The translations under genes and the position numbers were made by a program. This document shows positions 41,560-57,629 of a stretch of DNA of 64,000 nucleotides, in pieces; positions within the stretch are counted from its first letter, which is position 1, and every line of letters begins with the position of its first letter. Below the pieces are notes generated by a model that had not been told where the DNA came from, made no database searches, and saw nothing but the letters and a program-made list of their open reading frames with translations. The DNA is from Streptomyces humicola (GTDB lineage: Bacteria; Actinomycetota; Actinomycetes; Streptomycetales; Streptomycetaceae): the NCBI RefSeq assembly GCF_024436035.1, contig NZ_JANFNG010000014.1, positions 62,001 through 126,000 of the forward strand. The letters are read 5' to 3'.

Positions 41560-41769
41560 CGTCGTACGAGTCTAGGCCGCCGGACCGACAGCTCGCGGGG
41601 GTCGCCGGAAGACGGCGCCCGACGAGCAGCCGTAGCGGCCGGCGTGAAGATAACAAAGCGGTTTCGGACATATCACGCACCAGGCTTCACACGAGCCACA
41701 CACGTTCGCTAGCGTGCTCGACCAGGCGCCCGTCCCCCAGTTCGGCGACCAGGGCCGAAACGGACGCCT
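41560..41769. other. Divergent promoter region between pcrA and the riboswitch
   Basis: This 210-bp stretch should hold the pcrA promoter (minus) and the promoter for the riboswitch transcript (plus). A comparatively AT-rich patch around 41647-41680 (gataacaaagcgg and catatcacg) is the likeliest promoter zone. No gene is supported. Confidence 0.4.
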
Positions 41770-41910
41770 CCGCCTAATCCGGCCTGGCCGGAGCCGGGGA
41801 CCCACCAACCTTTGGGGTGAATCGGTCCGAACGGGCGTCCGCACGGACGTCCGTCGCGACTGGAGGGCAGCCTTCCGAAGCCCTAACCCGACAGCTAACC
41901 CGGTAGGCGG
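41770..41910 (+). ncRNA. ydaO-yuaA type cyclic-di-AMP riboswitch
   Basis: The leader of the NlpC/P60 gene contains the conserved ydaO landmarks in order: cgcctaatccgg, gagccggggaccca, tttggggtgaatcgg, agggcagccttccgaagccc, then cccgacagctaacccggtag. P1 is formed by ccgcct (41770-41775) and aggcgg (41905-41910). Such riboswitches bind c-di-AMP and switch off expression of cell-wall hydrolases and osmolyte genes. In streptomycetes they precede rpf and NlpC/P60 genes. Here the aptamer ends just before the Shine-Dalgarno of the hydrolase. Confidence 0.93.
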
Positions 41911-41916
41911 TCCACG

Positions 41917-41930
41917 GAAGGAGCGCCTTC
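41917..41930 (+). promoter_or_regulatory. Hairpin over the Shine-Dalgarno of the NlpC/P60 gene
   Basis: gaagg (41917-41921) can pair with ccttc (41926-41930) around the loop agcg, covering part of the ggaaggag Shine-Dalgarno immediately before ATG 41931. This could serve as the expression platform of the c-di-AMP riboswitch. The stem is short, so the regulatory role is inferred from position. Confidence 0.4.
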
Positions 41931-57031: not shown

Positions 57032-57132
57032 GGGCGGCCTTCCGGCGTGAGAAGAGGGGTCTCTGCCGATTCTACCGGCGTGCGTATGCAGTCCCGTCGG
57101 CAGAGTCGGCTGACGCATGCATAATGGGTCCC

Positions 57133-57213
57133 ATGTTCCGCAGCACACACAGCGCGCACTTCGCGTTTACCTATGGCACCGGCTGGTCCGGCTGCCATGG
57201 TCGTGCTGTCTGA
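57133..57213 (+). CDS. Aromatic-rich leader peptide (attenuator control)
   Basis: A 26-codon frame starts [10 protein letters not shown] and contains the dense aromatic run FAFTYGTGW. Phe appears three times, and Tyr and Trp once each, followed by TGA at 57211-57213. A CATAAT at 57120-57125 would start transcription at about 57132, making the ATG leaderless. It is followed by a strong terminator-type hairpin and then the chorismate mutase gene. This is the layout of ribosome-mediated attenuation, here responding to aromatic amino acids, which chorismate mutase helps make. There is no protein homology to cite; support is positional and compositional. ATG 57124 is an alternative start. Confidence 0.6.
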
Positions 57214-57233
57214 GCGGACGAACTCCAGACACC

Positions 57234-57273
57234 CACAGGCGCCCCGGACCGGTTTCGGTCCGGGGCGCCTGTG
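57234..57273 (+). terminator. Attenuator terminator before chorismate mutase
   Basis: A 17-bp perfect stem, 57234-57250 with 57257-57273 (loop ggtttc), lies 20 bp after the leader-peptide stop and 48 bp before the chorismate mutase start. There is no long U-run, as is common for terminators in this group. It is the candidate terminator arm of an attenuator; the antiterminator partner was not unambiguously identified. Confidence 0.75.
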
Positions 57274-57320
57274 TCGTCCGTCCGGACCGTTCGGGGCCAC
57301 CACCCCAGGAGCTACGGATC

Positions 57321-57629
57321 ATGAGCACACCCACCACGGCGACCACTACGGCCGCCTCGGCGGACACCGGTGCGCGGACGGACGAGGCCGCGGCGACGAT
57401 CAGCAGCGCGCGCGATCGCATCGACGATCTGGACCGCAGGATCATCGGCCTCGTCCGGCAACGCATCGCCGTCTCCGACTCCATCCAGCAGACCCGGATC
57501 GCCTCGGGCGGGCGACGCGTGAACCTCTCCCGCGAAATGGAGATCATCGGCGCCTACAGCGCGCAGCTCGGCAAGCCGGGAACGGCGCTGGCGATGACGT
57601 TGCTCGAACTGTGCCGAGGCCGCGTGTGA
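57321..57629 (+). CDS. Chorismate mutase (AroQ type)
   Basis: This 102-residue all-helical AroQ-fold enzyme converts chorismate to prephenate for Phe and Tyr synthesis. After a Thr/Ala-rich start the core is DRIDDLDRRIIGLVRQRIAV (the catalytic Arg is in this helix), the SDSIQQTRIASGGRRVNLSR segment with further active-site Arg/Lys candidates, and the final helix. The ATG at 57321 has aggag 9 nt upstream. It is preceded by the attenuator-like leader. Confidence 0.92.
   Translation: MSTPTTATTTAASADTGARTDEAAATISSARDRIDDLDRRIIGLVRQRIAVSDSIQQTRIASGGRRVNLSREMEIIGAYSAQLGKPGTALAMTLLELCRGRV

Follow-up and report, generated by a model that had tools for sequence, protein, structure and literature searches.

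The leader of Escherichia coli pheL-pheA combines Phe codons with a terminator. Its leader peptide precedes a chorismate mutase/prephenate dehydratase, and the system is controlled by charged tRNA-Phe (PMC11802643). The aroR-aroF system of Corynebacterium glutamicum, as the account of Neshat et al. 2014 in PMC11802643 has it, possesses Phe-Tyr-Phe leader codons, and its transcription rises on limitation for Phe and not for Tyr. Eight attenuators were described in Streptomyces lividans, with chorismate mutase not among them (PMC8079986), and a study of 2005 saw no conserved RNA structures upstream of the Phe/Tyr operons of Actinobacteria (PMC1262725). Attenuator-like anatomy in Streptomyces would not by itself prove attenuation, because mutations of the leader codons of S. 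coelicolor ilvB, a leader of similar appearance, left regulation unaffected according to the mention in PMC1262725. For Streptomyces or mycobacteria, no report of an attenuator on chorismate mutase was found in the open literature; an earlier report may exist.

The window, i.e. the whole stretch of 64 kb of DNA that was analysed, contains a unit which is very probably a ribosome-mediated transcription attenuator of the classical type, tuning chorismate mutase to charged tRNA-Phe and probably tRNA-Tyr. A leader ORF with the signature of translation, conserved Phe/Tyr codons, a terminator and an antiterminator that excludes the terminator are all found in the sequence. The sequence-only reading had placed a 26-codon aromatic leader, a CATAAT and a hairpin ahead of an AroQ chorismate mutase, and had proposed an attenuator that senses all three aromatic amino acids; the arrangement is borne out, as are the elements of an attenuator, and the sensing of Trp is not. 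The features are collected in Table 1.

Table 1. Features of the predicted attenuator unit and its target gene (positions in the window).
Feature	Position	Strand	Description or basis
-10 element CATAAT	57120-57125	+	ends 7 nt before leader ATG; family consensus CATACT
Leader peptide ORF	57133-57213	+	sequence reading; GC-by-codon-position coding signature in 108 relatives
Putative sensor codons TTC GCG TTT ACC TAT (Phe-Ala-Phe-Thr-Tyr)	57160-57174	+	conserved core F-x-F-[T/S]-Y
Hairpin P1 (1:2), ACC-AUGGCA-CCGG / CCGG-UGCCAU-GGU	57169-57201	+	5' strand holds Thr-Tyr codons
Antiterminator strand (region 2), GGUCCGG C UGCC AU GG	57185-57200	+	P1 3' strand; pairing permutation and Fisher tests
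Small hairpin P2, GUCUG 57208-57212 / CAGAC 57226-57230	57208-57230	+	spans leader stop codon
Terminator hairpin (3:4), 18 bp, loop GUUU	57234-57273	+	arms 57234-57251 / 57256-57273; 5' arm is region 3
Stand-alone AroQ-type chorismate mutase, 102 aa	57321-57629	+	NCBIfam equivalogs NF005894, TIGR01808; PDB 2qbv

The leader ORF comprises 26 codons, from the ATG at 57133-57135 to the TGA at 57211-57213. The transcript is predicted to begin at this ATG and hence to be leaderless: the -10 element is the sole sigma-70-like site in the 5 kb scanned, and a -10 hexamer lies 6-7 nt ahead of the start codon in 106 of 108 relatives, in agreement with the leaderless translation suggested earlier. Over both strands of the 64 kb, only one leaderless ORF carries at least three Phe/Tyr/Trp residues in 5 codons, and it is this leader. 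The fixed rule (a leaderless start and at least three Phe/Tyr/Trp within five codons), applied in 80 relatives to 829 kb-strand of sequence surrounding the gene, gave 89 matches at the leader, overlapping start choices being counted, and 2 elsewhere, namely L068's own variant leader and one unrelated ORF. The 201-nt RNA of the unit folds into much more structure than its shuffled versions do (z = -6.8). The gene guaA, beside which the unit had been placed, is divergent (minus strand) and lies outside it, and chorismate mutase stands alone downstream; the unit thus serves chorismate mutase only.

The target gene product scores 121.9 bits against NF005894 (cut-off 73) and 61 against TIGR01808 (cut-off 52.15); its Pfam CM_2 score is slightly below the cut-off. 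Its top PDB relative is 2qbv, Rv0948c of M. tuberculosis (E 1e-13). No Rfam family scores above gathering at the window leader or in ten related loci; the scores of P11, F6 and Ms_IGR-5 were rejected as all far under gathering, and a minus-strand match at 57228-57322 was dismissed as the palindromic hairpin read in reverse. Elsewhere in the window, a c-di-AMP (ydaO/yuaA) riboswitch is situated at 41761-41924 on the plus strand (71.2 bits).

The leader and its hairpins are conserved in 80 named Streptomyces loci, and the leader is present at all Streptomyces loci that have sequence upstream of the chorismate mutase gene. Among the Streptomycetaceae, the unit was parsed through an F-x-Y motif in 108 of 110 loci, a search that demands Phe at codon -2 and Tyr at codon 0, so that neither column can vary among the 108. 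One of the two unparsed loci (L035) ends at a contig end; the other, L143, retains Phe and has lost the Tyr codon. Codon -4, which the motif leaves unconstrained, encodes Phe or Tyr in 94 of the 108 leaders. The Phe at codon -2 is encoded by TTT in 108/108 and the Tyr by TAT in 107/108; in four genes of the window TTT accounts for 1/35 and TAT for 3/41. We also note that the leaders of Streptomycetaceae use the rare TTT for the second Phe and TAT for the Tyr although TTC and TAC dominate in genes, and that TTT occurs in the leaders of other families too. Trp is found at codon +4 in 11 of the 108 leaders. As read from these alignments the unit is a Phe/Tyr device and not a three-aromatic one, because Trp is not conserved; the expectation that aromatic codons and stem would persist across Streptomyces thus holds for the Phe/Tyr codons, with the exception of L143, and for the hairpin.

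GC contents at the three codon positions of the leader are 0.59/0.46/0.96 (108 relatives, from the start codon to five codons before Tyr), a pattern as expected of a translated ORF of high GC content. The frame is kept to the Tyr codon and can shift afterwards while the RNA sequence is conserved, as in L003, L006, L009 and L013, where the leader ends in LPWSCCLS[N/H] rather than SGCHGRAA. This suggests that what counts is the codons as far as Tyr and the RNA pairing beyond it.

A covariance model of the unit, R1, was run on 298 genomes of the family and matched 252 of them, in 17/17 genera; this count is a ceiling for complete units, as the weakest matches can be bare hairpins. Hairpins of this kind, lacking an aromatic leader, were rejected at L085 (the second R1 match in the window's own genome) and at the weak L214, L215 and L218. 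Of 25 genomes picked for a weak or absent R1 match, 7 encode a homolog of the chorismate mutase (P0001) and 18 do not (E 1e-5), and one of the gene-bearing genomes, G004, has a weak R1 match immediately upstream of chorismate mutase. Genomes with weak or no match thus mostly lack the gene, which indicates that leader and gene go together.

The terminator hairpin is perfect and begins 20 nt past the leader stop codon; the sequence-only reading was right about the perfect stem, and its figures of 17 bp and 48 bp before the gene are corrected to 18 bp and 47 nt (from the hairpin end to the ATG at 57321). All parsed Streptomycetaceae loci have a strong GC-rich hairpin right behind the leader. Changes on both sides are seen among the relatives in 5/16 pairs of the terminator and in 3/5 pairs of P2 (GCUUG/CAAGC, GCUCG/CGAGC), of which the window holds a compensated form, GUCUG/CAGAC in place of GCUUG/CAAGC. 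P1 is nearly invariant among the relatives and its own covariation support is small. For P1, P2 and the terminator together, 95.3% of cells are paired, and 9 pairs show two-sided changes versus 3.0 in shuffles. Between the terminator and the ribosome site of chorismate mutase, many Streptomyces carry another conserved inverted repeat, which is GC-rich and weaker (CCGG..CCGGGG; 57276-57300 in the window).

The Phe/Tyr codons are placed at the base of P1, whose 3' strand can alternatively join the terminator's 5' arm in a putative antiterminator, for example as GGUCCGG:CCGGACC (window), GGUCCG:CGGACC (L075) and AACCCGG:CCGGGUU (L141). When each distinct arm class is represented by a single locus, region 2 pairs with region 3 of its own locus at -23.98 versus -21.88 kcal/mol for swapped partners (permutation, p = 5e-5; p = 0.0065 with an alternative choice of representatives), and a G to A change in the terminator arm accompanies a C to U change in region 2 in 5/7 versus 12/101 (Fisher p = 0.00095), all p values being uncorrected for shared ancestry.

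The proposed mechanism would operate as follows. With RNA polymerase starting at the leader ATG, the leaderless 5' end would be loaded with a ribosome immediately. If Phe- or Tyr-tRNA is scarce, the ribosome would stall at TTC, TTT or TAT and mask P1 on its 5' side; the 3' strand (GGUCCGGCUGCC..GG) would be set free to pair with the terminator's 5' arm, allowing readthrough into chorismate mutase. If both are ample, the ribosome would get to the stop codon within P2 and the terminator would form. Without translation, P1 would form and sequester region 2, making termination the default. We infer termination and stalling in vivo, as well as which amino acid matters most.

Folding with a masked ribosome, an equilibrium sketch with an assumed footprint of 29 nt and the polymerase just beyond the terminator loop, was carried out on the 108 loci, in a few of which the terminator hairpin is mis-assigned. 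Without a ribosome, the expected antiterminator pairs have a median of 0.66. This median rises to 13.7 when a ribosome occupies the first Phe codon and to 14.2 when it occupies the second, and it is 10.6 for a ribosome at the Tyr codon and 10.0 for one at the stop codon; the stall at the second Phe codon exceeds the ribosome-free state in 105 of 108 loci. The contrast is smaller for the window alone, with 8.0 pairs free, 15.9 stalled and 12.5 at the stop codon. In this model the on-state is strongly backed and the stop-codon state partly so; the amino-acid-rich state is modelled as less clean than that of E. coli trp, because a ribosome at the stop codon lowers the antiterminator pairs and does not remove them. 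The footprint geometry points to Phe as the sensed amino acid. Sensing of Trp is unlikely, as by this geometry a ribosome stalled at the Trp codon of the window would cover region 2, and starvation for Trp should not activate the gene.

Intrinsic termination at the hairpin is not certain because the U tract is weak, both in the window (TCGTCCGT) and in the relatives (mean 3.4 T in 8 nt). The stall at the leader, by altering RNA structure, might instead set the output through access to the chorismate mutase ribosome site or through Rho. Such translational or Rho-assisted attenuation would fit the weak U tracts, the mycobacterial cys leaders without a visible terminator (PMC1262725), whose control has been termed translation attenuation (PMC13236596), and a mycobacterial leader, L220, for which a strong terminator hairpin is not obvious. 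We consider it rather unlikely in view of the GC-rich hairpins with compensatory changes in all parsed Streptomycetaceae loci and of the position of the window hairpin, which stops short of the chorismate mutase ATG and leaves its ribosome site clear.

Leaders of this kind are also seen outside the Streptomycetaceae. In a sample of class-level orthologs of the gene (n = 20), each with 800 nt upstream, a 9-45-residue leaderless ORF bearing the motif F[FWY]?Y was found in 16/20 on the sense strand and in 0/20 in the antisense control. Of the four negatives, L203/L238 has an RFYP leader on inspection and the other three, from genera of family f4, have none. In several outgroups the automatic assignment of terminator and antiterminator is poor, and it is the leader rather than the full switch that is seen there. 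One locus of family f4, L219, encodes an ortholog of Rv0948c (PDB 2qbv, E 8e-40) behind the leader VLSWQRRFFYGYRSAVPVGI, which ends in a stop codon; a leaderless FFYG leader precedes the Rv0948c-type chorismate mutase in the mycobacterial loci L219-L221.

The cross-family comparison bears on nascent-peptide arrest, in which the FTYG peptide would sense a ligand or stall by its sequence and not via tRNA charging. FTYG is almost invariant in the Streptomycetaceae, as such a peptide might be; against this, only the aromatic residues are shared across families (FFYG, FYYG, FFYA, SFYG, RFYP), the Gly after Tyr is a GGC within P1, the number of codons preceding Tyr varies from 8 to 15, and the gene product makes the precursor of Phe and Tyr. 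We regard peptide arrest as highly improbable. About equally improbable is a hairpin that only terminates an independent small RNA or small-protein transcript, with chorismate mutase having its own downstream promoter: leader and hairpin could form a short stand-alone transcript, but the 5 kb scan found a single promoter-like site (weak evidence in a GC-rich genome), genomes without this chorismate mutase gene are mostly without the unit, and the alternative pairing is conserved.

R1 also matches, with E down to 6.5e-9, upstream of a DAHP synthase in family f17 whose N-terminal part is NF006421-like. The leaders read MQRNFWRFYGYRP...ALR and stop, or near variants, at 8 loci and MRTAWSFWYGDGPVRTDRLHALR and stop at 2 loci; they are leaderless, carry Phe, Trp and Tyr, and are followed by a GC-rich hairpin. 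The loci are L204-L213 (e.g. L205, 976-1170), with the motifs NFWRFY or WSFWY. Folding with a masked ribosome gave no stall-dependent contrast for these f17 DAHP synthase leaders, and we infer the mechanism of this unit from its anatomy. Sequence similarity suggests, short of proof, that this unit and the one on chorismate mutase share an origin. In the genome of the window, a scan for leaderless ORFs with 3 aromatic residues found no like leader before the class II DAHP synthase genes, prephenate dehydratase or the second chorismate mutase. The chances appear evenly balanced that a single cassette of ancient origin, a leaderless aromatic attenuator, is used for the shikimate pathway throughout Actinomycetes, orthologs of Rv0948c included, with Phe and Tyr codons on chorismate mutase and Phe, Trp and Tyr codons on the f17 DAHP synthase; the codon set would track the place of the gene in the pathway, and a nearly obligatory rare TTT would sensitise the leader.

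A unit of this kind would fill a gap stated in 2005, RNA control of the Phe/Tyr genes of Actinobacteria (PMC1262725). In antibiotic producers, a simple point of control over the Phe/Tyr branch is predicted, which would be useful for making aromatic-derived compounds, and in mycobacteria the leader is offered for direct testing.

The type of switch is classic, and it probably occurs on chorismate mutase in Streptomyces and many other actinomycetes. The sequence-only reading had expected a distinct case; with Phe attenuators already described for pheA of E. coli and aroF of C. glutamicum (PMC11802643) it is not an isolated kind, and no report of the actinomycete chorismate mutase unit was found in the open literature. 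Like pheL-pheA, it has a leader peptide ahead of a chorismate mutase-containing enzyme; unlike pheL-pheA, to which its sequence is unrelated (as compared via Rfam only), it is leaderless, precedes a stand-alone chorismate mutase and conserves Tyr too. With aroR-aroF it shares an actinobacterial leader with Phe/Tyr codons, whereas aroR-aroF controls DAHP synthase in Corynebacterium, and chorismate mutase is not named as a target in the relevant account of PMC11802643. Within the same genus, the trpL, leuL and ilvL of Streptomyces resemble it in that their leader peptides are leaderless and GC-rich hairpins come next (PMC8079986, PMC1262725), and differ from it in serving other amino acids and genes.
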